Assembly: GCA_017527435.1 (NCBI GenBank)
Contig: JAFXQB010000019.1
Span: 62,001-126,000, forward strand
DNA: 64,000 nucleotides
Origin: Salinivirgaceae bacterium
GTDB lineage: Bacteria; Bacteroidota; Bacteroidia; Bacteroidales; SZUA-534
Direction of reading: 5' to 3'
Below the pieces are notes generated by a model. The model searched no databases. It was not told where the DNA came from and worked only from the letters and a program-made list of their open reading frames with translations. A program made the position numbers and the translations under genes. The stretch's first letter is position 1; every line of letters starts with the position of its first letter. Below are positions 28,471 to 56,352 of the stretch, piece by piece.

Positions 28471-28619
28471 TCTTTTAGTGTTTGAAATTTGCGGAAGCGA
28501 AAATAAGAAAACAATCGCGCTGTGTATGGATGTGTTTAAGGTAGTTTTGAACAGATGGGTGGGGATAAGATTGACAAGATGAACCGATTCGTTGACCCCG
28601 TCGCCATCTTTACAAAACC

Positions 28620-28671
28620 TGTAAAGCAACTGTAAAACCACTGTAAAAAACTTTACACTTTTTTACACTTT
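28620..28671 (+). promoter_or_regulatory. UAS copy 1: five TGTAAA/TTTACA half-sites
   Basis: A 52-bp element with three direct TGTAAA and two inverted TTTACA hexamers at 10-11 bp steps. It differs at one base from copies 2 (35401-35452) and 3 (48177-48228), which are identical to each other. It ends 42 bp before a TGGCAC sigma-54-type element. Likely enhancer for the NtrC-family regulator encoded at 54101-55480. Confidence 0.85.
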
Positions 28672-28766: not shown

Positions 28767-30107
28767 ATGCAAAAACAATTGATAATCGGTATTATGATGG
28801 CAATCGCGCCAAGCACATTCGGGGCAAACGCTTCGGACAGCGTCCGCACAATGACTCTGAAAGATTGTATGGAATACGCCATATCGAACTCAACAAAAAT
28901 CCGCATTAGCGAGACCACCGTTGACGATGCGCGGATTGCGCGCCGCGACGCCATTTTGGCGGCTTTCACGCCAAGTGTTAATGCGGGGGCAGGCGCAAGT
29001 TACAGTTTTGGCCACAATACCGACTGGCTGACAAACACCAAAATCGACATTACAACGTTCAGCAACGACTATAGCATTTCGGCGGGAATCACCCTTTTCA
29101 ACGGGTTCCAGGCGGTTAACAATATGCGCGTGTCGAAGACGGCGCTGGCCATTTCGCGAACGGAGCAGGAGCAGGCCGAAGCCGACATTTGCCTTGCCGT
29201 GATGGAAGCCTACTACAACGTGGTTTACTACTGCCGTCTGTGCCAACTGTTTGACGAGCAGATTGCTACAGCCCGCACAGCGCTCGATAAGATGCGCCGT
29301 CAGGAGGAGATTGGGCAGAAGAGCCGCGCCGATGTCATTCAACTTGAGGCCGACCTTGCCGACCGCGAGTACGACCTTGTCAGCACGCGTCAGATGCGCG
29401 ACGAGCAGATTATGACACTTTCCGATTTGATGTTCTTCCCTATGGATGAGCAGTTTGCGGTGGACACAACAATGCCTTTGGCCACCGCCGACAATCAAAC
29501 CGAGGATGAGATTGTCAACTATGCGCTGGGCAACAACCCCAGTGTGAAAATTGCCAACTGGCGCGCCGAAAACGCCCGCCGCGAACTCTCGACAGCCCGC
29601 TGGCAACTGTTGCCACATTTGAGTGCAAACGCAAGTTTGAGCACGGGCTATAGCAAGCGCAGTGGTTCCGATGCGCAGTCGTTCAATAAGCAGATTCGCG
29701 ACAACGTGGGCGAGAACATAGGTCTTTCGCTCTCGATACCAATCTTCGGCCGCCTGAACCGCTACTCTGAAATATCGCGCAAGCGCAACTCATACGCCCG
29801 CGCCAATGCCGAACTCGACCAAAAAAACCGCGAGACGGAATCGGCTGTGCGCAAGGCTTTCAACGATTGCCGCACCGCTCTGGCCGCCTATCAGCAGGCT
29901 TGCAAAAAGACTGAAATTCAGCAGGAAGCCTATCAACTCAATCAAAAACGGATGGAGCAGGGCCTGATTTCGGGACTTGAGTATCAGACGGCCGTCAACA
30001 ACTATCTGAAAACCAAATCCGACGATATGAAATCGCTTTTCACCTATCTGATAAAGCAAAGTGTATTAAAGTATTACAGTGGTGTGGAGTATGTGAATCA
30101 GTTGTGA
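28767..30107 (+). CDS. TolC-family outer-membrane efflux protein
   Basis: 446 residues with a signal peptide (MQKQLIIGIMMAIAPSTFGANA). The two structural repeats typical of TolC are recognisable: LKDCMEYAISNSTKIRISETTVDDARIARRDAILAAFTPSV and a second one starting NYALGNNPSVKIANWRAENARRELSTARWQLLPHLSANASL. Long helical coiled segments (YNVVYYCRLCQLFDEQIATARTALDKMRRQEEIGQKSRADVIQLEADLADREYDL) form the periplasmic tunnel. It is a one-gene unit under a sigma-54-like promoter with the same UAS as the MFP/ABC operon at 35.7 kb, so it is almost certainly the outer-membrane exit for that exporter. Confidence 0.92.
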   Translation: MQKQLIIGIMMAIAPSTFGANASDSVRTMTLKDCMEYAISNSTKIRISETTVDDARIARRDAILAAFTPSVNAGAGASYSFGHNTDWLTNTKIDITTFSNDYSISAGITLFNGFQAVNNMRVSKTALAISRTEQEQAEADICLAVMEAYYNVVYYCRLCQLFDEQIATARTALDKMRRQEEIGQKSRADVIQLEADLADREYDLVSTRQMRDEQIMTLSDLMFFPMDEQFAVDTTMPLATADNQTEDEIVNYALGNNPSVKIANWRAENARRELSTARWQLLPHLSANASLSTGYSKRSGSDAQSFNKQIRDNVGENIGLSLSIPIFGRLNRYSEISRKRNSYARANAELDQKNRETESAVRKAFNDCRTALAAYQQACKKTEIQQEAYQLNQKRMEQGLISGLEYQTAVNNYLKTKSDDMKSLFTYLIKQSVLKYYSGVEYVNQL

Positions 30108-32258: not shown

Positions 32259-32275
32259 TTTCAATCGTTTTGACA

Positions 32276-32306
32276 CAAAGGTAAACTATCCGAAACAGAG
32301 TTCAAA
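32276..32306 (-). promoter_or_regulatory. Bacteroidota promoter for the LytS/LytTR operon
   Basis: TTTG (32303-32306) and TACCTTTG (32276-32283) on the minus strand with a 19-bp spacer match the consensus perfectly. The -7 box lies 17 bp before ATG 32258. The LytTR-type repeats begin 8 bp upstream of the -33 element. Confidence 0.85.
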
Positions 32307-32313
32307 CGCCCCG

Positions 32314-32346
32314 ATGTCGTGTTCGTGGCCCAAAATGTCGGGTTCG
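32314..32346. promoter_or_regulatory. Paired direct repeat, likely LytTR regulator binding site
   Basis: ATGTCGTGTTCG (32314-32325) and ATGTCGGGTTCG (32335-32346) differ at one base and start 21 bp apart, about two helical turns, as in AgrA/ComE-type LytTR sites. The pair lies between two divergent promoters, adjacent to the -33 of both. Confidence 0.7.
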
Positions 32347-32356
32347 CGATGTCTTA

Positions 32357-32388
32357 TTTGCACAGCGTTGCGGGCCGCCGCAATTTTG
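32357..32388 (+). promoter_or_regulatory. Promoter for the outer-membrane protein gene
   Basis: TTTG (32357-32360), 20-bp spacer and CAATTTTG (32381-32388, one mismatch to TAnnTTTG). It sits 27 bp before the ATG at 32416, and the LytTR-type repeat ends 10 bp upstream of the -33 element, an activator position. Confidence 0.6.
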
Positions 32389-32415
32389 CAGCGCGAACAA
32401 AAAATTGATTGAGTT

Positions 32416-35380: not shown

Positions 35381-35400
35381 GTTTACACTCGGCACAAATC

Positions 35401-35452
35401 TGTAAAGCAACTGTAAACCCACTGTAAAAAACTTTACACTTTTTTACACTTT
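35401..35452 (+). promoter_or_regulatory. UAS copy 2: five TGTAAA/TTTACA half-sites
   Basis: TGTAAA starts at 35401, 35412 and 35423; TTTACA starts at 35433 and 35443. Identical over 52 bp to copy 3 at 48177 and one mismatch from copy 1 at 28620. It ends 41 bp before the TGGCAC element at 35494. Confidence 0.85.
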
Positions 35453-35493
35453 GTCAAATTGCGATTTGTCTGAATATCAGCAAAATAACAATT

Positions 35494-35508
35494 TGGCACG
35501 CACCGTGT
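35494..35508 (+). promoter_or_regulatory. Sigma-54-like promoter of the MFP/ABC exporter operon
   Basis: TGGCAC-N5-GTGT. The -24 half is perfect, while the -12 half has GT instead of the usual GC. The same 15 bases occur at 48270-48284 behind UAS copy 3, and a second TGGCAC follows 22 bp later in both, so the block is conserved. The start codon is 192 bp away. Confidence 0.5.
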
Positions 35509-35699
35509 ATTAAGTTTGGCACAAGAGTTTTGTAAAATGTAAAAATTTAAATGATGACAGAAAGAGAATAGAAAAAAATCTAACCGATTCAATCCGATTG
35601 TAACCGATGTTTTCTTTTGATTGAATCTGCTAAAATCGGTTAGATAAAAAAATATAAATCAGTGTTCTCAAAGCGAAAACAATTAAAAAACAAATAATT

Positions 35700-36956
35700 A
35701 TGGACTACATTATCGAACAAAAGAAAGGATTTGCGGCGGCTTTTACAAAGAAAGCGGTGCCGTTTTGGTTGGGCGGAGCAGTGGTGGCCGCGGTGGTTTA
35801 TCTGCTTCTGCAGAGCGACTCGCGGTCGCTGAAGGTGGATGCTGAAACGCTGACAATCAGCAATGTAACGCGCAACGAGTTTAACGATTACGTGCGAATC
35901 AGCGGACAGGTGGTGCCGCAGACAACCATTCAGTTGAGCCCGCTCGAAGGCGGCGTGGTTGAACGCATTGTGACAGAGGAAGGTACGCGGGTGAAGGCTG
36001 GCGACCCCATTCTGGTCTTGTCGAACGAAAACCTTGATATGCAGATTCTTAACTCGGAGGCCGAACTTGCCGAAAAGGAGAATATGCTGCGCAACACGGT
36101 TATTCAGATGGAACAGCAGAAACTCTCAAACAGGCAGAGCGAAATCGAACTCGGCATTGAGGTGAAACGCAACAAGCGCCACTACGAGCAGCAGAAGGCT
36201 CTGTTTGAGGAAAAACTGATTGCGCGTGAGGAGTTTACAAAGGCCGAAGAAGATTATTTTCTGTCGGTTGAGAAGTACGAACTGGTGCGCGAGCGCCTGA
36301 AACAGGACAGCGCCTTCCGCAGCATTGAGGTTGAGAGGCTTCAGGAGAGTTTGGAGAATATGCAGAAGAATATGCAAATCATTCGCCGCCGCAAGGAGAA
36401 CCTGGTGATTAAGGCGCCCATTGACGGCGAACTGGGCCTGCTCGACGCTGTTCTGGGACAGTCGATTCAGGCTGGTGTAAAAATCGGGCAGATAAACTCT
36501 GTCGGCACCTATAAGATTGAGGCACAGATTGATGAGCACTATATCGACCGCGTGACACTCGGACTTTCGGCCACATTCGACCGTCAGGGCGAGGTGTTCA
36601 ACGCAACCGTCCGCAAGGTGTACCCCGAGGTGCGTAGTGGCAAGTTCCAGGCCGACTTCCGTATCGACGGCACCCAGCCCGCCAATATCCGCAGCGGCCA
36701 GACTTACTATCTGAACCTGCAACTCGGCCAGAGCGAGGAGGCGGTGATTATCCCGCGCGGCTCGTTCTATCAGTCAACGGGCGGCAAATGGATTTTCGTG
36801 GTATCGCCCAGCGGCGACAAAGCCGTCAAGCGCGAAATTCGCATTGGCCGCCAGAACCCGAAATACTACGAGGTGCTCGACGGCCTGGAGCCAGGCGAGA
36901 AGGTAATCACTTCGTCGTATGAGAGTTACGGCGACTGCGAGGTGCTGGTGTTCTGA
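35700..36956 (+). CDS. Periplasmic adaptor / membrane-fusion protein (HlyD/MacA-like)
   Basis: 418 residues anchored by one N-terminal membrane helix (about 20-39, VPFWLGGAVVAAVVYLLL). The two lipoyl halves (SPLEGGVVERIVTEEGTRVKAGDPILVLSN and ENLVIKAPIDGELGLLDAVLGQSIQAGVKIGQI) flank a long helical hairpin (about 115-235). A beta-barrel and a membrane-proximal domain follow (AVIIPRGSFYQSTGGKWIFVVSPSG). It should link the inner-membrane permeases to the TolC protein encoded at 28767. First gene of the second UAS-controlled unit. Confidence 0.92.
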   Translation: MDYIIEQKKGFAAAFTKKAVPFWLGGAVVAAVVYLLLQSDSRSLKVDAETLTISNVTRNEFNDYVRISGQVVPQTTIQLSPLEGGVVERIVTEEGTRVKAGDPILVLSNENLDMQILNSEAELAEKENMLRNTVIQMEQQKLSNRQSEIELGIEVKRNKRHYEQQKALFEEKLIAREEFTKAEEDYFLSVEKYELVRERLKQDSAFRSIEVERLQESLENMQKNMQIIRRRKENLVIKAPIDGELGLLDAVLGQSIQAGVKIGQINSVGTYKIEAQIDEHYIDRVTLGLSATFDRQGEVFNATVRKVYPEVRSGKFQADFRIDGTQPANIRSGQTYYLNLQLGQSEEAVIIPRGSFYQSTGGKWIFVVSPSGDKAVKREIRIGRQNPKYYEVLDGLEPGEKVITSSYESYGDCEVLVF

Positions 36957-37136: not shown

Positions 37137-37817
37137 ATGATTAAAGTATCAAATTTATCGAAAGTGTTCCGTACAGAGGAAATTGAGACCGTTGCATTGA
37201 ACGGCGTATCGTTTGAAATCAAAGAAGGCGAGTTTGTCGCCATTATGGGGCCGTCGGGTTGCGGCAAGTCAACACTGATGAACGTTCTGGGCCTGTTGGA
37301 CTCGCCCACGGGCGGCTCGTACGAACTGCTTGGCACCGAGGTGGCTGGGCTGAAGGAGAAGGAGCGCACCAACTTCCGCAAGGGCAATATCGGATTCGTG
37401 TTCCAGAGTTTCAACCTGATTGACGAGCTGAACGTGTACGACAATATTGAGTTGCCGCTCAAATATCTGAATATCAGCGCTGCCGAGCGCAAGCAACGCG
37501 TCACCGAGATTATGAAACGAATGGCAATCAGCCACCGCGCAAAGCACTATCCGCAGCAGTTGTCGGGTGGTCAGCAGCAGCGTGTGGCCATTGCGCGCGC
37601 CGTGGTTGCCAACCCCAAACTCATTCTGGCCGACGAGCCCACTGGTAACCTTGACTCGAAGAACGGCCGCGAGGTGATGACGCTTTTGAGCGAACTCAAC
37701 GCCGACGGCACTACCGTGATTATGGTGACTCACTCGCCCAAAGACGCCGCCGTTGCGCAACGCACAATCAACTTGTTCGACGGTCAGATTGTGTCGGACG
37801 TGAAGAATGAATTGTAG
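37137..37817 (+). CDS. ABC transporter ATP-binding protein (MacB/LolD type)
   Basis: 226 residues, a single nucleotide-binding domain. Walker A is GPSGCGKST (residues 39-47), Q-loop [22 protein letters not shown], signature [14 protein letters not shown], Walker [14 protein letters not shown] and the switch His in VTHSP. It clusters with MacB/LolD/FtsE-type ATPases that pair with FtsX-like permeases. It is the only ATPase gene among four permease genes in the cluster, so it presumably powers all of them. Confidence 0.93.
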
Positions 37818-37925: not shown

Positions 37926-40316
37926 ATGAAAAGTTACCTGAAATTCCTATCTCGCAACAAGTTGTACACAGCCATTGAAGCGTTGGGGCTGATTGTGAGT
38001 CTGGCGTTTGTGATTCTGATTGGCAGCTACGTGGTGCAGCAGTACCAGGTGGCGCACGAGAATCCTGACTGGAAGCGCATTTATTCTCTTGGCAATGACA
38101 TAACCACAGGCTTGGGCTACTGGGACAAAGAAGAGCTCGAAATGAACATTCCCGAGGTAGAGAAAGTCTGCCGGGTGTCGATGTCGCTTTTTGGAGGCGT
38201 AATTGAGTTCAATGGAGAAAAAATACAGGGCAGGCTTCCTTCCAACCTTACCGTTGACCCGGAGTTGTTCGACTTGTTCCCATACCTGCGTTGGGTGGAA
38301 GGTTCGGTAAGTGATTTCTGTGGACAAAACAAAGTTGTCATCAGTGAGTCGTTTGCCCGCGAACTTCTTAACATTGAGCATAGCGACAATATGTCATCGC
38401 TCATAGGTAAAAGCATTCTTTTCGGTGATAGCAACAATACGATTGTCGGGGTGTTGCAAGACCTTAAAGGAACTTTCCTTTCGGAAATGAGCATCATTTC
38501 AATCTTCGGGAAAATTGATGAAGAGAAGAATTTCAACAGCATAGGCAACTGCTCAACGCTGTACCGAATCAGAGCCGACATTCCACGCGAAGAGGCTGAC
38601 GCCAAGATTATGGACCTTGTCAGAAAGGATTACGGGCCAACATATGGCGACCAGACAATGAGCTGGCGTACGTGGCGGTTCGATGAGATTTTCTGGCTGG
38701 GCATACATGCAAACAGAGGTTTTTCTCGTGTCGGGAACAAACAACAAGTATATCTGCTCACTCTGGTGGTGTTCCTGCTTCTGCTTTCGGCCGTCTTCAA
38801 CTACATCAATTTAAGTTTCGCTTTAAGCGGAAAACGTGCCAAGGAGATGGCTACACGCCGATTGTTGGGCGAGAGCCAAGGTGGTATTCTTCGGAAGATT
38901 ATTACCGAATCGGTGGCGTTCACCGCCGTCTGCTTTGCAGGTGCGCTGGTGCTGGCAGCATTGCTGGTTCCATTTATGAACGGATTGCTTGGCGAGGAAG
39001 TCCAATTGTCGATTGATTCAAATGTCAGGCTGCAAGTTCTTCTAACGCCCGGCTACATTGTTGCCTATATTCTGACGGTGCTGGTGTTGGGTGCGGCCAA
39101 CGGTCTTGTTCCGGCTTTGGCAACATCGCGCTACCAACCAATTGATATCATCAAAGGCACGCTGCGCCGCAAGAACCGGATGGTGTTCAGCCGGGTATTC
39201 ATCATTATTCAGAACGTTTTGGCAGTGATGCTTATCGCGATGGGATTGGTGATGGAGTTGCAGATGAAGCATATGCTGGAGCGCCCCACTCACTCGCAGA
39301 CAAAGAACCGATTTTATTTCTATTCTATGGCGTTCACCTATGACCAAACTAAACTTTTCAAGGACAAGGTTGAGCAACTGCCTTTTGTTACCAAAGTGGG
39401 GTTAGGAAGTGATTTGCCAGGGACGCTTAATGGTTGGCAAGGATTTATGCTTGACGATGGCACCGAAATCAAACTGTCTGTTATTGTGGCCGACACCAAC
39501 TATTTCGACTTGATGGGGCTTGAGATTCTTGAAGATTTTCAGCACCCGAAGATGCATTCGGTATGGCTTGGCCAGACAGCTTACAGGGCGGCGAACCTTT
39601 CCGACACTTCGACGGTTTTCGCCCGCAAGTTCAATGTCAGAGGCGTCCAAGCCGAGTACATTGGCGGCGTTGTGGCAGATTTTCCAAGTAACTCGGCAGC
39701 AGCAGGTGATGAAGGTATTCAGAATGTCTGCGTCATTATAGCCAAACCCGAGGAGACGTATTTCTCGCACAATCTGCTCATCGAAACCATTGGCGAAAGC
39801 AAGGAGTACGAACAGCAGATTCTCAAGGCCTACAGAGACTATCGGATGGAGCAGTTCGGTATCTACCAGGAACCTCTTCGTGCAGGATTCATCCGTGATG
39901 TTTACCGTCAGCAACTGGCATCAGCCCGCAAAACAATGCGACTGTTGGAACTTTTTGCGGCGTTGTCCGTCCTGATAGCATTATTAGGTCTGCTGGCTAT
40001 GAGCACCTACTTTGCCGACGAGAACACCAAGCAGATAGCCATTCGCAAGGTTTTCGGTTCCGATGTCACACACGAAACCTGGCGCAACGTGCGGAGTTAT
40101 ATGACTCTGGCCGGAATAGCCTGTGTCATTGGCATTCCGCTGGCCGTTTGGGCTGCGCGGCTCTATCTTGAGCGTTTTGCCTACCGGATTGAGAACTACG
40201 GCTGGCTGTTTGTGGTGGCCATTCTTATATCGCTAGCAATAGCATTTGTATCAGTGATTTGGCAGGTTATATGTGCCGCCCGCACCAATCCCGCCGAGGC
40301 GCTGAAGAAAGAATGA
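37926..40316 (+). CDS. MacB/FtsX-type ABC permease 1
   Basis: 796 residues with the duplicated layout of Bacteroidota MacB-like permeases: a first membrane helix (about 18-40), a periplasmic MacB core domain (about 41-275), an FtsX block of three helices (about 280-415, VFLLLLSAVFNYINLSFALSGKRAKEMATRRLLGES), another helix (about 425-445), a second periplasmic domain, and a second FtsX block ending RTNPAEALKKE. The first 30 residues are nearly identical to permease 2 (MKSYLKFLSRNKLYTAIEALGL), showing recent duplication. Such proteins work by mechanotransmission, driving substrate from the periplasm through the adaptor and TolC. Confidence 0.92.
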   Translation: MKSYLKFLSRNKLYTAIEALGLIVSLAFVILIGSYVVQQYQVAHENPDWKRIYSLGNDITTGLGYWDKEELEMNIPEVEKVCRVSMSLFGGVIEFNGEKIQGRLPSNLTVDPELFDLFPYLRWVEGSVSDFCGQNKVVISESFARELLNIEHSDNMSSLIGKSILFGDSNNTIVGVLQDLKGTFLSEMSIISIFGKIDEEKNFNSIGNCSTLYRIRADIPREEADAKIMDLVRKDYGPTYGDQTMSWRTWRFDEIFWLGIHANRGFSRVGNKQQVYLLTLVVFLLLLSAVFNYINLSFALSGKRAKEMATRRLLGESQGGILRKIITESVAFTAVCFAGALVLAALLVPFMNGLLGEEVQLSIDSNVRLQVLLTPGYIVAYILTVLVLGAANGLVPALATSRYQPIDIIKGTLRRKNRMVFSRVFIIIQNVLAVMLIAMGLVMELQMKHMLERPTHSQTKNRFYFYSMAFTYDQTKLFKDKVEQLPFVTKVGLGSDLPGTLNGWQGFMLDDGTEIKLSVIVADTNYFDLMGLEILEDFQHPKMHSVWLGQTAYRAANLSDTSTVFARKFNVRGVQAEYIGGVVADFPSNSAAAGDEGIQNVCVIIAKPEETYFSHNLLIETIGESKEYEQQILKAYRDYRMEQFGIYQEPLRAGFIRDVYRQQLASARKTMRLLELFAALSVLIALLGLLAMSTYFADENTKQIAIRKVFGSDVTHETWRNVRSYMTLAGIACVIGIPLAVWAARLYLERFAYRIENYGWLFVVAILISLAIAFVSVIWQVICAARTNPAEALKKE

Positions 40317-40412
40317 TGAAAAGGTTTAGATGTTAAGGGTTTAGAAGTTTAGAAACTAAACAAGCGAAGCGACTGAACTTCTAAACTCTAAACTTTTATA
40401 AACAGCGAAGCC

Positions 40413-40428
40413 CCCGATAGCTATCGGG
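40413..40428. repeat. CCCGATAGCTATCGGG palindrome, copy 2
   Basis: Exact copy of the 16-bp palindrome, within the 162-bp word-repeat gap between permeases 1 and 2, directly after AACAGCGAAGC. Confidence 0.9.
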
Positions 40429-40478
40429 ATTAACTTCTAAACTTTTAAAAAACTTTGAAAACTAAAACATAAACTGAA

Positions 40479-42779
40479 ATGAAATCGTACCTGAAATTCC
40501 TATCGCGCAACAAGTTATACACCGCAATCGAGGCCTTGGGGCTTGTTGTGAGTCTGGCGTTTGTGATAGTCATTTCGTGCTACACCTGGCAGCAGTTTGC
40601 CGTCACGCGCGAGGCGAACGACTACCAACGGCTCTATTCGCTGAATTTGGGCTATGAGGATGGTCTATTGGCTAGACCCGGCGAAATGGCTTTGGCTCTC
40701 GACCGCATACCTGGTGTTGAGGCGGGCGGACGAATCTCTTGTTATGGAACAAAAGTTAAGTATGAAGGAAATGAACTTCCTGGGCATCCCGATATTTGCC
40801 AAATCGACCCTGTGATTTGCGATTTCTTTCAGTTCGATTTCGTTTCGGGGTCAAAAGAGGTCTTGAACGATAAGAGTCAAGTTCTTCTTGATGAGAGTTT
40901 TGCAAGAAAAATATCGCCCGATATCGACCCTGTGGGACGAACAATCATTGTCTTGAGAGACACTTGCATAGTAGGCGGCATTGTTCGCGCCAACAACCAT
41001 TCCATTTTAGAAAAACACGATATTTATATGGCAATCGCCGACCCCGATGTTGCTTCCGACGGTTACTACTTTTTTATGGATGCGGTTTTTATACGCTTTC
41101 GCGAAGGCGCCGACCACGAGGCCGTTCGTACGATGATTGACACCGTTGTGCGGCGCGAATTGAATATCGATAGGCTGTATTCGCCGTTAAGTCTGACTAT
41201 TCCATACAAGGAAATCTATTTTTCACCGCGAGGCCGCCACTGCAACGCTCTCAAACACGGCAATCTGACAATGGTTTACGTGCTGATAGCCGTCGGAATC
41301 TTACTTCTTGCGTCGGCGCTTTTCAACTACATAAACTTGAGCGTGGCGCTTGCCGGCAAACGAGCCAAAGAAATGGCTATCCGCACGGCTTTGGGCGAAC
41401 AGCGCGGTGAGGTTTTCCGCCGATATGTTGTTGAAGCAGTGCTGTTTACTGGTGCGTGCATTGTGTTGGCGGCGGTGCTTGCCAAAGCGTTTGTGCCTGT
41501 TTTCAACCGATATGTTGCGGGTGATATCGGGCTTGATATTGCTTTCTCGCCCGCCTACATTGCGCTTTACATTGCGCTGGCGCTGATTGTCGGACTTGTA
41601 TCGGGCGCCATTCCTGCTGCTATCACGTTGAGTTACAATTCCGTAGCCGTCATAAAAGGCGAGCAGCGCCGTCAGACGAAAACCGTCTTCTCACGCGTTT
41701 TCATTGTCATTCAGAACATTATCACCGTCGCGCTCATATCGCTTGCAATAGTGATGGAATTACAATACAACCATTTGATTAATATGCCGTTAGGTGCAAA
41801 TGTTGATGGGCTTTATTTTATATCGTGCGGCGATGTAGGTGTCGACCAACTTGCCGCAAAGCCCTACGTTGATAAGATTGGACTTTCTGACAGTTACCCT
41901 GGTCGTATGCATATGCAAATGCAAACAGCCGTTGACGGCCGTAGTATATATATCAACACATTCAGTTGCGACAAAAATGCGTTCGATTTATTCGGATTCG
42001 AAATAGTTAGAGATTACCAAGTACCGGGCGGTAAAGGTATGTGGCTCACCGAGTCGACAGCAAATATCTTTGCAATTGACCGGGAAAACCCGGTAAAACC
42101 GAAGGAATTGCCTTGGTTCAATAGCGATTCGATAATTGCAGGAATTGTTAAAGATTACGTTGTGGACAACTTGTCGGAAGTGAATGGAAATCAGGTAGGA
42201 ATAATAGACCTTTGCGAATTTGATTATACGCCCAACGCCATATTGAAACTGAACCGATTTGACACCGAAGTGCGTGCTGATTTACGGAAACTTGCAGAAG
42301 AGGAAAGTATCCGCCGCTATGGCGATACAAGAATTGCCGATTGGTACGGCTATATTCCCGAACTGATTGAAAAGAGTTTGACGGAGACTCGCAATTTCAT
42401 AAGTCTGATAGAGTTGTTTATGCTGCTTGCCACGCTCATATCGCTTTTGGGTCTGGTGGCGATGAGCGCCTACTACATTGGCCTTCAAACGGCAAACATA
42501 GCCGTGCGCAAGGTTTTAGGCGGTACCGTGGCGTCAGAAGCGCTCCGTGCGGTGAAAGAGTATATGCTGCTTGTCGGAATAGCCATTTTGATAGGTATTC
42601 CTGTTGCTATCTACTTTGCCAACAAATATTTGAATCAGTTCTACTATCGGGTCGACGGTTATTGGTGGGTGTTTGCTGTGGCGGCCGTCATTGCCCTTGC
42701 AATATCGTTCCTTGCCGTTCTCTCGCAAACGCTCAAGGCGGCAAAGGCCAACCCTGCGGTGGAGTTGAAGAAGGAGTGA
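40479..42779 (+). CDS. MacB/FtsX-type ABC permease 2
   Basis: 766 residues with the same eight-helix, two-periplasmic-domain layout as permease 1. The FtsX blocks read LIAVGILLLASALFNYINLSVALAGKRAKEMAIRTALGEQ and LLATLISLLGLVAMSAYYIGLQTANIAVRKVLGG, and the end is KANPAVELKKE. The N-terminal helix region is almost the same as in permease 1 while the periplasmic domains differ widely, suggesting duplication with diversification of the substrate-contacting part. Probably transcribed with the MFP, ATPase and permease 1. Confidence 0.92.
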   Translation: MKSYLKFLSRNKLYTAIEALGLVVSLAFVIVISCYTWQQFAVTREANDYQRLYSLNLGYEDGLLARPGEMALALDRIPGVEAGGRISCYGTKVKYEGNELPGHPDICQIDPVICDFFQFDFVSGSKEVLNDKSQVLLDESFARKISPDIDPVGRTIIVLRDTCIVGGIVRANNHSILEKHDIYMAIADPDVASDGYYFFMDAVFIRFREGADHEAVRTMIDTVVRRELNIDRLYSPLSLTIPYKEIYFSPRGRHCNALKHGNLTMVYVLIAVGILLLASALFNYINLSVALAGKRAKEMAIRTALGEQRGEVFRRYVVEAVLFTGACIVLAAVLAKAFVPVFNRYVAGDIGLDIAFSPAYIALYIALALIVGLVSGAIPAAITLSYNSVAVIKGEQRRQTKTVFSRVFIVIQNIITVALISLAIVMELQYNHLINMPLGANVDGLYFISCGDVGVDQLAAKPYVDKIGLSDSYPGRMHMQMQTAVDGRSIYINTFSCDKNAFDLFGFEIVRDYQVPGGKGMWLTESTANIFAIDRENPVKPKELPWFNSDSIIAGIVKDYVVDNLSEVNGNQVGIIDLCEFDYTPNAILKLNRFDTEVRADLRKLAEEESIRRYGDTRIADWYGYIPELIEKSLTETRNFISLIELFMLLATLISLLGLVAMSAYYIGLQTANIAVRKVLGGTVASEALRAVKEYMLLVGIAILIGIPVAIYFANKYLNQFYYRVDGYWWVFAVAAVIALAISFLAVLSQTLKAAKANPAVELKKE

Positions 42780-48002: not shown

Positions 48003-48093
48003 AATGTTCATTATCAATAGTATACGCTAAAATATTTAATGCGACGTTTTATTGTGAGTCGGAAAAACTAACTTTTAACCTTCTCACTAGCAA

Positions 48094-48132
48094 AACACGG
48101 AACCCACCAAAACGGGTTCCGTGTTTTTTTTG
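48094..48132 (+). terminator. Strong terminator after the GH2 gene
   Basis: AACACGGAACCC (48094-48105) pairs perfectly with GGGTTCCGTGTT (48114-48125) around an 8-nt loop and runs into seven further Ts. It insulates the downstream UAS-controlled unit from read-through. Confidence 0.92.
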
Positions 48133-48176
48133 TGTAGGATGCGGGGAATTTGAAAGGCTGCACCACTGTGTAAACC

Positions 48177-48228
48177 TGTAAAGCAACTGTAAACCCACTG
48201 TAAAAAACTTTACACTTTTTTACACTTT
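48177..48228 (+). promoter_or_regulatory. UAS copy 3: five TGTAAA/TTTACA half-sites
   Basis: Identical over 52 bp to copy 2 (35401-35452). It ends 41 bp before TGGCAC at 48270, the same spacing as copy 2. Confidence 0.85.
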
Positions 48229-48269
48229 ACAAATTATTGAAATTATTGTAAATCAGTAAAATAAAACTT

Positions 48270-48284
48270 TGGCACGCACCGTGT
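48270..48284 (+). promoter_or_regulatory. Sigma-54-like promoter of the peptide/permease/regulator unit
   Basis: TGGCAC-N5-GTGT, identical to the element at 35494-35508, and again followed 22 bp later by a second TGGCAC. It is 157 bp upstream of the first 40-residue peptide gene. Confidence 0.5.
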
Positions 48285-48440
48285 AATAAGTTTGGCACGA
48301 GAATAAAAAAATGAAAATGAAAATGAAAATGAGAAGGACATCAGACAACGGACAACAGACAAAAACTTTTGCCTAATGCCTTCAACTTAAAACTTCGAGA
48401 ACTTAAAACTTAAAATTTATAACTACTAAAACTTACAACT

Positions 48441-48563
48441 ATGATTACAACAACTATCAGAATCGAATCGTGGCGCCGCAGCGGACGCAACAATATGCTA
48501 CAGAACCGTCACAATCGCTTGGCGGGAGCGTCAGTTAGAATTGCAAAAACCGCAAAACACTAA
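48441..48563 (+). CDS. Tandem small basic peptide A (40 residues)
   Basis: ATG 48441 to TAA 48561-48563 encodes a 40-residue peptide starting MITTTIRIESWRRSGR and ending RIAKTAKH. It is strongly basic (many Arg/Lys/His, one Glu). Its first 16 residues are identical to those of peptide B, 45 bp downstream, and an M-x-QNR motif follows in both (MLQNR here, MQQNR in B). Third-position differences that keep the protein sequence (ACA/ACT, ATC/ATT) show it is translated and under selection. It has no signal peptide or double-glycine leader. First coding element after UAS copy 3; it could be an exported peptide, a signalling peptide or a leader peptide. Function unknown. Confidence 0.7.
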   Translation: MITTTIRIESWRRSGRNNMLQNRHNRLAGASVRIAKTAKH

Positions 48564-48608
48564 CTTAAAACTTTGAAAACATAAAATTTATAATAATAAC
48601 ATAAAACT

Positions 48609-48731
48609 ATGATTACTACAACTATCAGAATTGAATCGTGGCGCCGCAGCGGACGCCGCTCAATGCAGCAAAACCGTCGTACAAATATCGCGAAAGCGCC
48701 GATAATGGGAATGAGAACGGTGAAATGTTGA
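48609..48731 (+). CDS. Tandem small basic peptide B (40 residues)
   Basis: ATG 48609 to TGA 48729-48731 encodes 40 residues, the same length as peptide A. The N-terminus MITTTIRIESWRRSGR is identical, the middle has MQQNRR, and the C-terminus diverges to a hydrophobic, Met-rich tail (APIMGMRTVKC) ending in a Cys. The pattern of a constant N-terminal half and variable C-terminal half resembles leader-core peptides, though no known leader motif or maturation enzyme is visible. The leader between the two genes is the AACTTAAAACTT/ATAATAATAACATAAAACT filler. Downstream are two ABC permeases of the same regulon. Confidence 0.7.
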   Translation: MITTTIRIESWRRSGRRSMQQNRRTNIAKAPIMGMRTVKC

Positions 48732-48896
48732 ATTTAATGGTGAATCGGTGAATTGAAGTTGAGAAAGTTTAGAAGGTTGAGAAGGTTTAGAGTCTAGTTT
48801 CGCTCAACCTTCTAAACCTTTAAAAACTTATAACTTCGAAAATTTAATAACTTGTTCAGACGTGCCACGGCGCGTCTCTACCAAAAACAAACTAAT

Positions 48897-51329
48897 ATGA
48901 TTTCATTATTTCGAAAAGGCAAAACGACACGCGCATCGTTCATAATCAACACTTTGGGAATGGGTGTGGCCATTGCGGCGTTCTACATTCTGGCGGTGCA
49001 GGTGCATTTTATGTTCACCTACAACAAAAATCTGCCCGACCACGAGAACATTTATGCAATGCACGTTCCGCGGTTCAACGGCGAGGGGCGTATGACATCG
49101 ATTTGCCGACCGCTGGCCGAGCGGCTCATCAGCGAATTGCCCGAGATTGCCGCGGGTGGCGAGTTCGGACCGTGGGGTCAGAGTTGGCGCAGTTACAGCC
49201 TTCAGCCCGAGGGCGAGCACGGCAGCGCCGAAAACGGGTTTCCGCGCAATTTGAACACCCAATTTACTTATGTGACGAAACCGACCGTCGAAATACTTGG
49301 TTATGAGTTTATTCAAGGCTCATGGGCGGCTATGGAAGGCGACGACCGCCATCTGGCCGTTTCGGAATCGCTGGCAAAGAAATTCGACCTGCAGGTGGGC
49401 GACATCATTCAAGAGAACGCCGACGATGGCAAGAAAATGTGCGAGGTGGTGGCCATCTTTAAAGACGCGCCAAAAAACAGCGACCTTGAGAGGTTCGACG
49501 TTTTGTGCGACATTGGCAATGTGTGCATCGACAATTGGAGCGAAGGCAGTTTCACCTATTTTGTGAAACCCACTGCCGGACTTACACCCGACGACCTTGA
49601 CCGCGCCGCCGACGCCCGTCTGCGCCGCGCCTGGACCGAGGGCGGTTTCTTCCCCGAAGGGTACGGCACTGCTGAAAACGACGAGGAACTTGAAGAGGCT
49701 ATGGGACAGATAAATGTCAAATTCATTCCCATTGCCGACCTATATTTTTCCGAAATAGGGTCGAACTATATGCGCCAAGGTAACAAGGGTATGGCCTACG
49801 GTTGGATTGCCATCGCTTTGCTCATCTTGTTTGTGGCCATCATCAACTATGTGAATATGTTTTTTGCGCTGGTGCCTGTGAAAATCCGCGGCATCAACAC
49901 CCGCAAGATACTGGGCAGCAGCCGCGCGAGCCTGACAATGAGCGTGGTTTTGGAGGCTGTGACAATGACGGCGGTGTCGATTGCCGTAGCGGCCGCTCTG
50001 ATTCTGCTGTTGCAGACGACAACCTACGCTGGTCTTATGGCTAGCAGTGTGTCAATTGTTCGGAACGCAGGTGTGGCCCTGCTTTGCGCCGTGGGTGCCA
50101 TTGTGGTGGCCGTGGGTTCGAGCCTTTACCCCGCGCTCTACATCACATCGTTTGAGCCTGCGTTTGCGCTCAAGGCGAATTTCGGCGCAAGCCAAACAGG
50201 CAGAACTCTGCGCTATGCGCTTGTTATGGTGCAGTTTACGGTGGCCATCGCCTTCATTATTATGACGGTTTTTGTTGATATTCAGAACGGTTTTCTGCTG
50301 AATCACAATATGGGCTTCGACCGCGAGAACATTGTGGTGGCGCACGTGTCGAACAAGGTGGGCAACGAGACTGCCATTGTTGAGTCGGCGCTGAAACAAG
50401 ACCCGCAGGTGAAAGACGTGGCGTGGGGTGACGGCAGGTTAGTGTATTGGGGACGAATGTCGTGGGGACGGCAGATTGACGGCAATCAATGTATGTGGGA
50501 AGTGTTTCCCTGCTCGTGGAATATGCTTGATTTTCTGGGGATTGAGATTGTGGAAGGCCGCAACTTCACGCAGTCCGACACGCAAACCGAGACCGGTGTA
50601 ATGATTTTCAACGAGACGGCCCGCAATCAGTACGGATTCACGCCTGGGAAAATGATTCCTGGTCACGCCAAGAAAGACGCCGAGATTGTCGGTATCTGCA
50701 AAGATTTTAACGCCTGGCCAATGAGCCAAGCCGTCCGCCCGTACTGCTTCTACGTTTGGGGCGACAACGGCTATCGTCCTTGCACCGAACTGTTTGTGCG
50801 CACAACCGCGAGCGCCGATATCCGTGAGGTTTTCAAACACATTGAGCAGACCGTTATGGGCTTCGACGAGAAACTCACCGCCGAAGACATCAATGTGCAT
50901 CTGTTCGACAGCGACTTGCAACAATTATACACTGACGTCGCAAAATTCGCGAAACTGACTCGTATGCTGTCGATTATCACCATCATCATCGCACTTTTGG
51001 GCGTGTTCGGACTGGTGCTGTTCGAGACCGAGTACCGCCGCAAGGAGATTGGCATCCGCCGCGTGAACGGCGCCACCATTGCCGACGTGCTGCGAATGTT
51101 CAATCGCCGCTACGTGCTGATTGTGCTGGCTTGCTTCGGCATTGCCGCCCCCGTCAGTTATGTGGTCATAAGCGCCTATCTGCAGCAGTTCGCCTACCGC
51201 ACGGCCATTCACTGGTGGGTGTTTGTACTGGCGCTCGTGGCTGTAATGGCCATCACGGTGACCATTGTGACGCTGCGCTCGCTGCGGGCGGCCACAAGCG
51301 ACCCTGTGGAATCGTTGAGGACGGAATAA
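48897..51329 (+). CDS. MacB/FtsX-type ABC permease 3 (divergent)
   Basis: 810 residues from ATG 48897 (MISLFRKGKTTRASFIINTLGMGVAIAAFYILAV); the frame extends to a TTG at 48852 but those residues are not family-like. It keeps the two-FtsX, two-periplasmic-domain layout (IAIALLILFVAIINYVNMFFALVPVKIRGINTRKILGSSRA; IITIIIALLGVFGLVLFETEYRRKEIGIRRVNGATIADVL) and ends TSDPVESLRTE. It is the most divergent of the four permeases. It lies 165 bp after peptide B, with no ATPase gene of its own nearby, so it likely uses the one at 37137. Confidence 0.9.
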   Translation: MISLFRKGKTTRASFIINTLGMGVAIAAFYILAVQVHFMFTYNKNLPDHENIYAMHVPRFNGEGRMTSICRPLAERLISELPEIAAGGEFGPWGQSWRSYSLQPEGEHGSAENGFPRNLNTQFTYVTKPTVEILGYEFIQGSWAAMEGDDRHLAVSESLAKKFDLQVGDIIQENADDGKKMCEVVAIFKDAPKNSDLERFDVLCDIGNVCIDNWSEGSFTYFVKPTAGLTPDDLDRAADARLRRAWTEGGFFPEGYGTAENDEELEEAMGQINVKFIPIADLYFSEIGSNYMRQGNKGMAYGWIAIALLILFVAIINYVNMFFALVPVKIRGINTRKILGSSRASLTMSVVLEAVTMTAVSIAVAAALILLLQTTTYAGLMASSVSIVRNAGVALLCAVGAIVVAVGSSLYPALYITSFEPAFALKANFGASQTGRTLRYALVMVQFTVAIAFIIMTVFVDIQNGFLLNHNMGFDRENIVVAHVSNKVGNETAIVESALKQDPQVKDVAWGDGRLVYWGRMSWGRQIDGNQCMWEVFPCSWNMLDFLGIEIVEGRNFTQSDTQTETGVMIFNETARNQYGFTPGKMIPGHAKKDAEIVGICKDFNAWPMSQAVRPYCFYVWGDNGYRPCTELFVRTTASADIREVFKHIEQTVMGFDEKLTAEDINVHLFDSDLQQLYTDVAKFAKLTRMLSIITIIIALLGVFGLVLFETEYRRKEIGIRRVNGATIADVLRMFNRRYVLIVLACFGIAAPVSYVVISAYLQQFAYRTAIHWWVFVLALVAVMAITVTIVTLRSLRAATSDPVESLRTE

Positions 51330-51506: not shown

Positions 51507-53864
51507 ATGAAAAGTTTCTGGAATTTTCTAAAAAACAACAAGTTGTACGGACTTGTAAACCTTGTGGGACTGACAGTATCGATGGCGTTTGTGCTGCTGC
51601 TGGCGGCGTATGTCCAACGGCAGTTGACAACCGACTCGTTTCAGAAGAACGCCGACCGCACCTATCTGATTGCCTGTGAGGGGCACCTGAATATGGGTTA
51701 TTGGCTCGACAAGCACCTGAAGAACAATTTCCCCGAAATTGAGAAAGGCTGCTGCGTGGCCAGTTTATCTTCGGCCTGCGAGTTTAAAATTGACGGAGCC
51801 ACCGTCTATGGCAGCGTTACGTGCGCCGACAGTAACTTCTTCGACATTTTCAGTTACGAACTGATTGCCGGCAACAAATCCGACTGGCACATATCGGGCG
51901 ACCAATGTATGATAAGCCAAAAGTTTGCCAACGCCTATTTCGCTGACAAAGAACCGCTTGGACGAGTAATCACACTAAAAAACGAGAACGACGAATTTTC
52001 GCTCACTGTTTGCGGTGTTTTCAGCGATTTCGGCAATTCAATCATAAAAACACCCGATGTGTTGGCCCGTGGCGAGGTGATGCCGAAATGCAACCCGTCG
52101 CACAATGAGAATATGAGCAACGCTGCCGGGGGCGTTTGCTTTGTGATGACTTATCCCGGGGCCGACCTTCAGGCGCGACAGGCCGATATGCTCGACTGGA
52201 TGAAACAGAACTGGTGGGTGTATAGAATTGGCGCGTTCAAAGATGTGAGGATGATTCCTTTACGCGATGTCTATTTCCTGAAAGAGGGTAACGGCGAATG
52301 GTCTGGTGCTCTGCACCTTGGCAACCGCAGTTTTGTGACCCTTCTGCTCGCAATGTGCCTTTTGCTGTTGGCGTTTGCAGTGCTCAACTATGTGAATATG
52401 AGCACGGCTCTGATGGGCTTCCGCGCCAAAGAGATGGCAACGCGGCGGCTGGTGGGTGCCGCCAAAAGCGGAATCTTCCTGAAAATTATTGCCGAAAGCA
52501 CCGTTGTCTGCTTCATATCGATGCTGCTGGCCGTTGTGCTGGCAGAACTCTTTGCCCCTGCCGCGTCGCGCCTGCTGAACTATCACGTTTCGGTGTTCAG
52601 CGCCATATCGCCCGTGAACATACTGCTTGTGCTGGCATTCATAGCCGTTCTGGGATTCGTAGCAGGACTGGTTCCCGCCCTGCTCATTCAGAAGGCGCAG
52701 CCAATCGAGATTGTGCGCGGCACTCTTCGGCGCAAGACCAAAACCGTTTACAGCCGCGTTATCATTGTGATTCAGAACGTTGTGGCCGTGGTGATGCTTG
52801 TGTCGGCGCTCACAATGTGGCTTCAGATTCGCCATATGATTAACGCCGATTTAGGCTACAACACAAAGGATATTCTTGTTGTCGAGAATGGTTTCGGCAC
52901 GTCGGGCGAACTTCGTCCCGCCATTGACAAACTGAATGCAACGTCGTGCGTTGAGATGGTCGGTCAGGGCAATGGAATCCCGCTTGAGCACACCAACAAT
53001 TCAACTATGACTATCGACAACGGCGATTTTGTTTCTTTCCAAGAGATACAAGGCGATGACAACTATTTCCAAATTCTGGGGTTGAGAGTGAAACAGGACA
53101 ATCATTTGGGACAGAAACAAGGTGAAAATAACGACCAATGGATTACATGGCTTAATGAGTACGCCTTCAAACTGATAGGTATCGATGAAACGGCTTCTGA
53201 TTTTGTCTCACCAGGCAACGGCACAATCCTGATAGGCGGAATCTATTACGATTTCAAGATTCGACCGCTTGAGGCTGCACAAAGCGCAGCACTGATTTCG
53301 AACTGGGGCGAGAGTTCTGACGACAACTATCCCTGGACGCTGATTATCAAGACGACAGGCGACCACGCCACCGCCCGTCAGCAGGTTGAGGCTGCATTCA
53401 AATCGGTCTTCCCCGATAAAATCTTCGAAGCCAAGTATATGGAGGAAATAATCGAAGATGGCTTCCGCGATGAGCGACGAATTCTGTCAGTAGTGCTCAT
53501 TTTCACACTGCTGTCGATTCTGGTATCGGCATTGGGTCTGTTTGCAATGAGTTCGTACTATATGCAGCAGGAGATTCGCAGCGTGTCGGTCAAGAAGGTG
53601 TTTGGCGCCGAATATTCGGGCGTGCTGCGCGAACTGGTACTGTCGTTTATGAAGATGGTTGGCGTGGCCTTTGTGCTTGGCATTCCGCTCGGCTGGTACG
53701 TTATGAGCCGCTGGCTTGCAGGCTACGGCCACCGTATCGACCTGTACTGGTGGATTTTCGCCCTTGCGGGCCTTGCCGTGGCGCTGATTGCCGCCGTTTC
53801 GGTTCTCTACCAAAGCGTGAAAACCGCAAACACCAATCCCGCCGAGGCACTGAAGAAAGAGTGA
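51507..53864 (+). CDS. MacB/FtsX-type ABC permease 4
   Basis: 785 residues, with N-terminus MKSFWNFLKNNKLYGLVNLVGLTVSMAFVLLLAAYV related to permeases 1 and 2, FtsX blocks LLLAMCLLLLAFAVLNYVNMSTALMGFRAKEMATRRLVGAAKSG and LLSILVSALGLFAMSSYYMQQEIRSVSVKKVFGAEYSG, and the end NTNPAEALKKE. The C-terminal helices match permease 1 more closely than permease 3 does. It is followed by 236 bp of word-repeat filler and the regulator gene, probably in the same transcript. Confidence 0.92.
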   Translation: MKSFWNFLKNNKLYGLVNLVGLTVSMAFVLLLAAYVQRQLTTDSFQKNADRTYLIACEGHLNMGYWLDKHLKNNFPEIEKGCCVASLSSACEFKIDGATVYGSVTCADSNFFDIFSYELIAGNKSDWHISGDQCMISQKFANAYFADKEPLGRVITLKNENDEFSLTVCGVFSDFGNSIIKTPDVLARGEVMPKCNPSHNENMSNAAGGVCFVMTYPGADLQARQADMLDWMKQNWWVYRIGAFKDVRMIPLRDVYFLKEGNGEWSGALHLGNRSFVTLLLAMCLLLLAFAVLNYVNMSTALMGFRAKEMATRRLVGAAKSGIFLKIIAESTVVCFISMLLAVVLAELFAPAASRLLNYHVSVFSAISPVNILLVLAFIAVLGFVAGLVPALLIQKAQPIEIVRGTLRRKTKTVYSRVIIVIQNVVAVVMLVSALTMWLQIRHMINADLGYNTKDILVVENGFGTSGELRPAIDKLNATSCVEMVGQGNGIPLEHTNNSTMTIDNGDFVSFQEIQGDDNYFQILGLRVKQDNHLGQKQGENNDQWITWLNEYAFKLIGIDETASDFVSPGNGTILIGGIYYDFKIRPLEAAQSAALISNWGESSDDNYPWTLIIKTTGDHATARQQVEAAFKSVFPDKIFEAKYMEEIIEDGFRDERRILSVVLIFTLLSILVSALGLFAMSSYYMQQEIRSVSVKKVFGAEYSGVLRELVLSFMKMVGVAFVLGIPLGWYVMSRWLAGYGHRIDLYWWIFALAGLAVALIAAVSVLYQSVKTANTNPAEALKKE

Positions 53865-54100: not shown

Positions 54101-55480
54101 ATGGCTTCCAAAACAGGAAAAATTCTTGTTGTTGACGACAACGCGAGCATTCGGCAGACACTGAAACTGCTTCTGCCACTGCATTTTGCACAGGTTGAGA
54201 CACTTCCGTCGCCTTCGACGCTCATTGCCACCATAGGCACTTTCAAGCCCGACGTGGTGCTGCTCGATATGAATTTCAAAACCGAGGTGAACACAGGAAA
54301 CGAAGGCCTGTATTGGACTCGCGAATTGAAAGAGATTGCGCCGCAAATCGAGATTGTGCTTTTCACGGCCTACGCCGACATTGAACTGGCGGTGGAAGGA
54401 ATGAAGCGCGGCGCGTTCGATTTTATTGTGAAGCCGTGGGACAACGCCAAACTGGTTTCGGTGCTGACGGCGGCCTGCAACAAGGCGGCGCAGAATGCGG
54501 GCGGCGGTTCGTCGCGCCAAGCGAAAAAAGCACCCGCCGAAGCCCGTGCGGCAAAGGCTGGCGGCGATATGTTCTGGGGAACAAGTCCCGCAATGGAACA
54601 AATCCGACGCACCGTTGAGAAGATTGCGCCAACCGACGCCACCGTGCTCATTACGGGCGAGAACGGTACGGGTAAAGACGTGATGGCTAGGCAGATACAC
54701 GCTTTGAGCGCTCGCGCCGACAAGCCAATGGTGGCTGTTGACGCAGGGGCCATTCCCGAGACGCTGTTCGAGAGCGAACTGTTCGGCCACGTGAAAGGCG
54801 CCTTCACCGACGCCCACACCGACCACGAAGGCCGTTTTGAGCAGGCCAACGGCGGCACGCTCTTTCTTGACGAAGTGGGCAATCTGCCGCTTCATCTTCA
54901 GGCTAAACTGTTGAGAGCCATACAGTCGCGCAGCATTGTGCGCGTGGGCGGCACACAGCCCGTGGCCGTCGATATTCGCCTAATCTGCGCCACCAATATG
55001 AACCTTGAACAGTTGGTGGCCGAGGGGCATTTCCGCGAGGACCTTTACTACCGCATAAACACCGTGCACATTGAGTTGCCGCCGTTGCGCAACCGCGCGT
55101 CCGACATTATTCCGCTGGCCGAGCGCTTCCTGGCCGACAACGCCGTCAAGTACCACCGACCGCTTACTGGTATCGACGAGAGCGCGCGGCAAATGCTCAC
55201 CAATCACCGCTGGAACGGCAACATTCGCGAGTTGCAGAACTGCATTGAGAAGGCGGTGATTATGTCGGAGGGTACAACGCTGACTGGCAGCGATTTGCAA
55301 CTGAACGTATCGCAGCGCACCGAAGAAATCCACCTGACGGGCCGCTACGACGAGGAAGATGAGGAACAACTTGTTCGTCAGGCTGTTAGCCAATGCCACG
55401 GCAATGTTTCGGCGGCAGCCAAAATGCTCAACGTGAGCCGCCCGACACTCTACGCCAAAATGAAAAAATACGGATTATGA
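54101..55480 (+). CDS. Sigma-54-dependent NtrC-family response regulator
   Basis: 459 residues from ATG 54101 (MASKTGKILVVDDN); a GTG at 54062 is unlikely. Receiver domain 1-125 with phosphoacceptor Asp56 in VVLLDMNF and Lys in IVKPWD; AAA+ domain 155-385 with Walker A GENGTGKD (186-193), the sigma-54 contact loop GAFTDA (233-238, the usual GAFTGA with G5 replaced by D), Walker B GGTLFLDE, and RWNGNIRELQN; C-terminal Fis-type helix-turn-helix (VRQAVSQCHGNVSAAAKMLNVSRPTLYAKMKKYGL). It is the obvious candidate activator for the three UAS/TGGCAC promoters. The histidine kinase gene overlaps it by 4 bp. Confidence 0.93.
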   Translation: MASKTGKILVVDDNASIRQTLKLLLPLHFAQVETLPSPSTLIATIGTFKPDVVLLDMNFKTEVNTGNEGLYWTRELKEIAPQIEIVLFTAYADIELAVEGMKRGAFDFIVKPWDNAKLVSVLTAACNKAAQNAGGGSSRQAKKAPAEARAAKAGGDMFWGTSPAMEQIRRTVEKIAPTDATVLITGENGTGKDVMARQIHALSARADKPMVAVDAGAIPETLFESELFGHVKGAFTDAHTDHEGRFEQANGGTLFLDEVGNLPLHLQAKLLRAIQSRSIVRVGGTQPVAVDIRLICATNMNLEQLVAEGHFREDLYYRINTVHIELPPLRNRASDIIPLAERFLADNAVKYHRPLTGIDESARQMLTNHRWNGNIRELQNCIEKAVIMSEGTTLTGSDLQLNVSQRTEEIHLTGRYDEEDEEQLVRQAVSQCHGNVSAAAKMLNVSRPTLYAKMKKYGL

Positions 55481-56352
55481 GTTGGACACTGATTCTGCTG
55501 ATAACACTGACTGCCACGGTTTTAGCCATCATCGCGACGGCCATCATCGTACACCGTCACCTTGTGAACAAGGTCACCTATATGATGGACTCGCTCGAAG
55601 ACGGTGAACTGAACTTCCGCTTTGTCGAGAACAGCCGCTTCAACCGCGCGCTGAACCGCATCCGCTACATCTACGAGCAGCAGCGGCAGCAGTACGAGCA
55701 GGATTCGTGGACGAAACTCATCCGCGTGCTTACCCATGAGATTATGAACACCGTGGCGCCAATTGCATCGCTGAGCGACGCGCTGTCGAAATCGGTTGAC
55801 GAGAACGGCAATTCTGAAATGGACATAAAAGCAGGATTATCAATCATTTCCGACTCGTCGAACAACCTGATAAAATTTGTGCAGACCTACCGCCAGTTGA
55901 GCGGTGTGGCGCGGCCAGTGCGAAAATCGCTCAGCCTAAAAGAACTGATTGATAAGATTATAACGCTTGAAAGCGAACAAATTGCGAGCCACAACGCGCG
56001 CTGCACCTACTCAACCGAAAACATCGACCTTCTCATTTACGCCGACGAAGGCCAACTGTCGCAAATCATTATCAATCTGATAAAAAACGCGCTTCAGGCA
56101 AATGCTTCGCAGATTACCATCACATCGGGCAACGGCAACGGCGACGAAGTTTGGCTGCGCGTGGCGAACAACGGCGACCCCATTACGCTAAGCAATCAAG
56201 AGCAGATTTTCATTCCGTTCTTCACCACCAAAGCCGAAGGCAGCGGCATCGGCCTGAGCATCTCGCGCCAGATTCTGCGCCAGCACAACGCCACCATCAA
56301 CCTTGTCAAGAGCGACGAGAGCGAGACGGTGTTTGAAATGGTGTTTAAATAG
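55477..56352 (+). CDS. Membrane histidine kinase partner of the sigma-54 regulator
   Basis: 291 residues from ATG 55477, which overlaps the regulator stop as ATGA; the upstream frame to 55393 lies wholly inside the regulator gene. One membrane helix (about 4-25, TLILLITLTATVLAIIATAIIVH), a short linker, the H-box VLTHEIMNTVAPIASLSD with His87, and a HATPase domain (LIKNALQANASQ N-box; EGSGIGLSISRQILRQHNATINL G-box). It has no periplasmic or PAS sensor domain, so it may sense through the membrane helix or through a partner such as the permeases. Pairs with the response regulator to control the exporter regulon. Confidence 0.92.
   Translation: MSWTLILLITLTATVLAIIATAIIVHRHLVNKVTYMMDSLEDGELNFRFVENSRFNRALNRIRYIYEQQRQQYEQDSWTKLIRVLTHEIMNTVAPIASLSDALSKSVDENGNSEMDIKAGLSIISDSSNNLIKFVQTYRQLSGVARPVRKSLSLKELIDKIITLESEQIASHNARCTYSTENIDLLIYADEGQLSQIIINLIKNALQANASQITITSGNGNGDEVWLRVANNGDPITLSNQEQIFIPFFTTKAEGSGIGLSISRQILRQHNATINLVKSDESETVFEMVFK

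Follow-up and report, generated by a model that had tools for sequence, protein, structure and literature searches.

Predicted basic microproteins behind sigma-54-like promoters of a MacAB-TolC-like efflux regulon in one ruminant-gut Bacteroidales genus

The DNA analyzed here (the window) is a stretch of 64,000 nucleotides from a Salinivirgaceae bacterium, in which two short ORFs lie in tandem ahead of an ABC permease gene. They belong to a transcription unit that follows the terminator of a glycosidase unit and has the order UAS copy 3, sigma-54-like promoter, microproteins 1 and 2, permease:

48092..48127, + strand: intrinsic terminator, a 14-bp stem followed by a U-run, which ends the upstream beta-galactosidase (glycosidase) unit
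48176..48233, + strand: UAS copy 3, TGTAAA repeats / TTTACA inverted arms, a likely site for a sigma-54 response regulator
48269..48298, + strand: sigma-54-like promoter TTGGCACGCACCGTGTAATAAGTTTGGCAC, with a -24 TGGCAC and a -12 GT instead of GC
48441..48563, + strand: microprotein 1, 40 aa, MITTTIRIESWRRSGRNNMLQNRHNRLAGASVRIAKTAKH
48609..48731, + strand: microprotein 2, 40 aa, MITTTIRIESWRRSGRRSMQQNRRTNIAKAPIMGMRTVKC
48764..48820, + strand: inverted repeat between microprotein 2 and the permease, with no U-run and not conserved in relatives
48897..51329, + strand: MacB/FtsX-type permease, 810 aa, directly after the microproteins

Both ORFs have exactly 40 codons, are identical over residues 1-16 and carry a common motif, M-L/Q-QNR. 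An earlier, sequence-only reading of this DNA had described them in these terms (with the motif as M-x-QNR) and as the first genes after UAS copy 3, directly before the permease; all of this is borne out, the permease ATG being at 48897. Within the first 48 nt the two ORFs differ at two sites, both silent (ACA/ACT, ATC/ATT). The pair constitutes an 81-nt tandem repeat of 85% identity and is a tandem duplication. Both products are strongly basic, having 9-10 Lys plus Arg residues against a single acidic one. The statement that such ORFs are too short for normal gene calling is not strictly true, as Prodigal accepts 90 nt.

Two minor elements were also seen in this region. In the 5' leader, a short ORF at 48311-48376 (MKMKMKMRRTSDNGQQTKTFA) is built of an ATGAAA repeat, the make-up of which differs in genome G009; it is probably not a gene. 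A short GC-rich hairpin-like element (GACGTGCCACGGCGCGTC and variants), found ahead of operon genes (48858-48880 in the window; 8354-8371 in locus L025), is possibly a dispersed repeat.

The neighboring genes of the window make up a MacAB-TolC-like set, i.e., MacB/FtsX permeases, ATPase, adaptor and TolC, with a shared type of UAS and promoter:

28619..28671, + strand: UAS copy 1, ahead of TolC, with no microprotein after it
28767..30107, + strand: TolC-type outer-membrane efflux protein of the same regulon
35400..35457, + strand: UAS copy 2, ahead of the adaptor gene, with no microprotein after it
35700..36956, + strand: HlyD/MacA-type periplasmic adaptor
37137..37817, + strand: ABC ATPase (MacB/LolD type) of the efflux operon
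37926..42779, + strand: two further FtsX-type permeases of the efflux operon (37926-40316 and 40479-42779)
51507..53864, + strand: second FtsX-type permease, 785 aa
54101..55480, + strand: sigma-54-dependent response regulator (RR-AAA-Fis), the presumed activator at the UAS
55393..56352, + strand: partner histidine kinase, the start of which may be the ATG at 55477

At the sequence level, the microproteins share their UAS and promoter type with the TolC, adaptor and ATPase genes. The UAS pattern occurs at 28 sites in 11 genomes, with invariant columns, and at none when a reversed pattern is used as a control; the promoter pattern has two matches in the window against zero expected. At the peptide promoters the -24 box is perfect (TGGCAC) and the -12 element is GT rather than GC, which is present in the TolC promoters. 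The enhancer-binding regulator in the window and a sigma-54 (rpoN) gene are both present, and we infer that this regulator pairs with the UAS and that sigma-54 is used. For Bacteroidia FtsX-like 'antimicrobial peptide transport' permeases, sigma-54 control has been predicted (PMC12316311).

The regulon seems to contain two promoter types: TGGCAC...GTGTAAT for the peptide, adaptor and ATPase operons (48269-48298 and 35493-35522 in the window) and TGGCAC...TGCC for TolC (28711 onward). The GTGTAAT type is without the canonical -12 GC and has a second TTTGGCAC about 23 nt downstream. In this genome, the region that separates TolC from the adaptor (30425-35322) encodes a LytTR response regulator and a His_kinase-type sensor divergently from a 969-aa CarboxypepD_reg/OMP_b-brl_3 outer-membrane protein.

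A genus search followed by a profile search, which returned the same nine genomes, yielded 17 strong family members in 9 of the 11 genomes of the genus; because the family recurs in this way, the two ORFs are not a product of chance. The homologues whose existence the sequence-only reading had made a matter for checking are thus present, with conserved protein sequence. Thirteen members are 40-mers (MITTTIRIESWRRSGRRSMQQNRR...), and the other four, one pair of them in tandem, are 31-33-mers that form a second subfamily (MIITANRLESWRRSNRRNHLAKASVRTSKRR and relatives). E-S-W-R-x-S, a mid-sequence R and an A-(K/G/N)-x pattern recur across the family, and tandem copies occur in genomes G000, G002 and G009. 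The source genomes are labeled 'Salinivirgaceae bacterium' and, in one case, 'uncultured Bacteroidetes bacterium'; several of the former come from the fore-stomachs of sheep, yak and water buffalo. Metagenome assemblies alone represent the organism here.

Beyond the genus, searches of 393 order genomes and 396 phylum genomes (samples that overlap), GTDB genome contigs, IMG/VR, phages and plasmids yielded no member. Of 11 weak order-level matches outside the genus, the 10 inspected were rejected, as they lie within large genes or their other frames, e.g., that for ribosomal protein L7/L12. Homologous efflux loci with a related regulator occur across Bacteroidales, and the gene maps of the loci examined in other families show no member of the microprotein family. 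Neither Pfam, NCBIfam, PHROGs nor PDB sequences gave a match to the microproteins, in line with the earlier impression that the family had not been described. The family is real and previously unnamed, and is so far confined to one ruminant-gut Bacteroidales genus.

Several features of the nucleotide changes indicate that the ORF is maintained as a protein-coding sequence. A comparison of ten non-identical 40-mers gives pN/pS values of 0.09 (codons 1-16), 0.08 (codons 17-24) and 0.56 (codons 25-40; 0.46 when the two most divergent sequences are dropped). The 14 distinct changes in codons 1-16 include 10 silent ones, where 3.6 would be expected; 0 of 5000 random placements gave as many as 10. 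The silent excess is not significant for codons 25-40 taken alone. Purifying selection is thus strong on residues 1-24 and weaker on residues 25-40, in support of the earlier argument from silent third-position differences. Conservation ends at the stop codon, past which the alignment breaks down. An untranslated conserved RNA or DNA element, with the ORF incidental, would account for the high nucleotide identity across the first 72 nt, but it is difficult to reconcile with the clustering of variable columns at third codon positions (29 vs 12 and 12 at the other two), with the retention of ATG, frame and length in every copy, or with the Rfam search, in which no match reached the gathering score and all were far below it. 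We therefore hold such an element to be highly improbable; the data fit best with a translated protein in which residues 1-24 are the most important.

All 17 members lie directly behind a UAS and a conserved sigma-54-like promoter of the MacB-type efflux regulon, which answers the question that had been raised about their neighborhood, and 13 of the 28 UAS sites lead to one or two peptides. Those that lead to no peptide are at the TolC genes, at two adaptor genes and at the ATPase of G008 and of G010. The first gene downstream of the peptide is of five kinds: permease A (G000, G001, G002, G005, G009), permease B (G007, G008), the ATPase (G003, G004, G007), an OMP_b-brl_3 barrel (TonB-type outer-membrane) followed by an alpha/beta hydrolase (G005, G009), and an S12 beta-lactamase-family hydrolase with ABC-2 transporter genes (G002). 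No ORF separates promoter and ATPase in G008 and G010; the G008 UTR up to the ATPase ATG is nearly identical to that of G007, which carries the peptide there, and G008 retains a peptide at a different promoter. The microprotein is therefore tied to the promoter and not to a neighbor gene, i.e., a short protein gene recognizable by its promoter rather than by its neighbor.

The operons headed by the 31-33-aa subfamily are unrelated, one kind opening with the OMP_b-brl_3 barrel and the other with the S12 hydrolase and then the ABC-2 transporter. The UAS, promoter and short-subfamily ORFs in front of these genes are at L026:8542-8637, L027:8613-8708 and L025:8107-8334, which suggests that the regulon has captured other envelope-defense operons. 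In the peptide-less genome G010, locus L181 (G010:C16) has a contiguous run of TolC, adaptor, ATPase and four permeases, an order that is possibly ancestral.

The main rival explanation is a cis-acting uORF, in which translation of the short ORF, for example through ribosome pausing in its RR-rich N-terminal part, would govern how the remainder of the operon is transcribed or translated. The ORF is always first after the promoter, a position that counts against an action in trans since it fits a cis role as well, and the conserved Arg-rich part could be a pause site. In L026 and L027 the stop codon is only 4 nt ahead of the next ATG, which would permit translational coupling, and the window transcript folds better than shuffled sequences (z -3.9). 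However, the ORF has no constant downstream gene, ATPase, adaptor and TolC genes stand behind the same promoter without any uORF, and the same ATPase is found both with and without the ORF. The stop-to-ATG gap ranges from 4 to about 290 nt, its sequence, hairpins and inverted repeats are not conserved, and no terminator of the kind expected of an attenuator was found between the ORFs and the gene. Tandem copies would also be unusual for an attenuator. Known arrest peptides are conserved on the C-terminal side, nearest the stall, whereas the present peptide is conserved in its N-terminal part. On balance we consider a cis role rather unlikely.

The predicted properties of the microproteins are those of a soluble protein. 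No signal sequence, transmembrane segment, known domain or double-glycine motif was detected in them; mean hydrophobicity is negative and the best 12-residue mean is at most 0.24 (Eisenberg scale). AlphaFold2 models a single long helix with moderate confidence (mean pLDDT 70), a fold that points to no particular function. In a test of amphipathicity against shuffled sequences, one subgroup alone came near significance (136/2000 and 111/2000 shuffles), and the short subfamily did not exceed its shuffles.

These properties bear on the possibility, favored in the sequence-only reading, that the ORFs encode precursors of an exported antimicrobial or signaling peptide leaving via the co-encoded permeases. 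The cationic composition, the conserved N-terminal part with a faster-evolving C-terminal part, and the shared promoter with TolC, adaptor, ATPase and permeases (elsewhere an OMP barrel or a hydrolase) are compatible with this proposal. The contrast between a constant N-terminus and a variable C-terminus holds insofar as residues 1-24 are more constrained, but the C-terminal half is not freely variable: it keeps its length and an A-K-A...T-x-K pattern, is conserved in type and changes conservatively. The leader/core design is weak for this reason and because no RiPP enzyme is nearby. The terminal Cys is true of microprotein 2 but is not conserved, the last residue being A, N, G or H in other members. 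As had been noted, no known leader type or maturation enzyme is visible; family models and a survey of the cluster disclosed neither a RiPP maturation enzyme nor a peptidase-containing transporter, the cluster ATPase being without a peptidase domain. MacB moves no substrate across the inner membrane but loads from the periplasm, and its peptide substrate STII first enters the periplasm by Sec (PMC5985334). Because the microproteins have no hydrophobic stretch or signal sequence and MacB takes periplasmic substrates, they are unlikely to be a MacB substrate unless another route exists; nor is the peptide tied to the adjacent permease, so that export through it, as proposed, is not supported. 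The short-subfamily amphipathicity likewise gives no help, and we consider the export proposal improbable.

The one radical SAM enzyme seen was considered as a RiPP enzyme and rejected: it is 22 kb away, scores as tRNA-modifying MnmL/YtqA and is kept in the peptide-less G010.

That the downstream gene varies, that copies occur in tandem and that some promoters have no ORF together argue for an action of the product in trans. We put at about even the chance that the product is a strongly basic, cytosolic microprotein which acts in trans and tunes the MacAB-TolC-like efflux regulon. Protein-level selection, the position of all 17 members behind UAS and promoter, and the lack of a detected signal, transmembrane segment or domain count for this reading; the occurrence of the core efflux system across Bacteroidales without the family, and of a pump without the peptide in G010 (99% complete), count against it, as does the fact that the known pump modulators WatS and AcrZ span the membrane, which this protein does not. 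As G010 shows, the microprotein is dispensable.

In the proposed mechanism, the histidine kinase would sense envelope or antimicrobial stress, the inducing signal being hypothetical, and the response regulator would bind the UAS, whereupon sigma-54 RNA polymerase would fire. The microprotein would be the first product of the regulon transcripts, co-produced with the TolC-adaptor-ATPase-multi-permease pump, and would most likely tune the system by binding at the cytoplasmic face to the ATPase, to permease loops, or to the kinase or regulator as feedback; both the partner and the direction of the effect are hypothetical. Any copy in the regulon could supply the microprotein, and its gene could hence move between operons.

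More tentatively, and in our view doubtfully, the soluble Arg-rich microprotein may act across the whole regulon, as an effector or as a feedback element, in the MacB-type (type VII) efflux and envelope defense of Bacteroidales, and be acquired by operons as a promoter-plus-microprotein cassette. If so, it would to our knowledge be the first small-protein partner of a MacB-type mechanotransmission pump. Bacteroidota have large sigma-54-linked sets of MacB-type permeases, and signals and substrates are known for few of them. The microprotein, encoded behind the same promoters in front of different operons, is a handle on how such responses are tuned. The family should be of interest to specialists in Bacteroidota stress responses and in small proteins.

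Erm leaders are short ORFs at the 5' end of resistance transcripts. The E. coli TopAI-YjhQ uORF likewise is at the 5' end of a stress transcript (PMC12121999); unlike both, the present peptide is conserved as a whole, most of all at the N-terminus, is tandem-duplicated and has no single downstream gene. Precursors of Bacteroidales RiPPs and bacteriocins are also short ORFs near ABC genes with an N-terminal part more conserved than the C-terminal part (PMC10352776), but here no known leader, maturation enzyme, NCBIfam family or Pfam family is found. A survey of sigma-54 promoters covers the same transporter class in the same bacterial class (PMC12316311); it predicts promoters of large genes, and 'small protein' is absent from its main text. 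As far as the searched family libraries and the literature show, the family is undescribed, and on present evidence it is of a known general kind and not a new kind of system.

AcrZ is a membrane-embedded partner of AcrB. It resembles the microproteins as a small accessory protein of a TolC-dependent pump (E. coli AcrAB-TolC; PMC10355033) and differs from them in that they are without a hydrophobic segment. The closest functional analogue is WatS1-WatS5 of Methylomonas sp. DH-1, paralogous smORF polypeptides under an efflux-pump regulator that are proposed to change pump specificity (PMC10355033). The microproteins have none of the membrane-spanning segment of these proteins and so are of neither the WatS nor the AcrZ type. 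WatS1-4 have a predicted transmembrane domain and belong with an RND pump and a LysR-type regulator, whereas the present proteins are soluble and Arg-rich and belong with sigma-54 and a MacB-type pump; WatS is a functional analogue only, and no sequence relation is claimed. The likeness is in the arrangement: several paralogous, unannotated small proteins (WatS of about 50 aa) at several loci, some homologous among themselves, under pump-linked control (PMC10355033).
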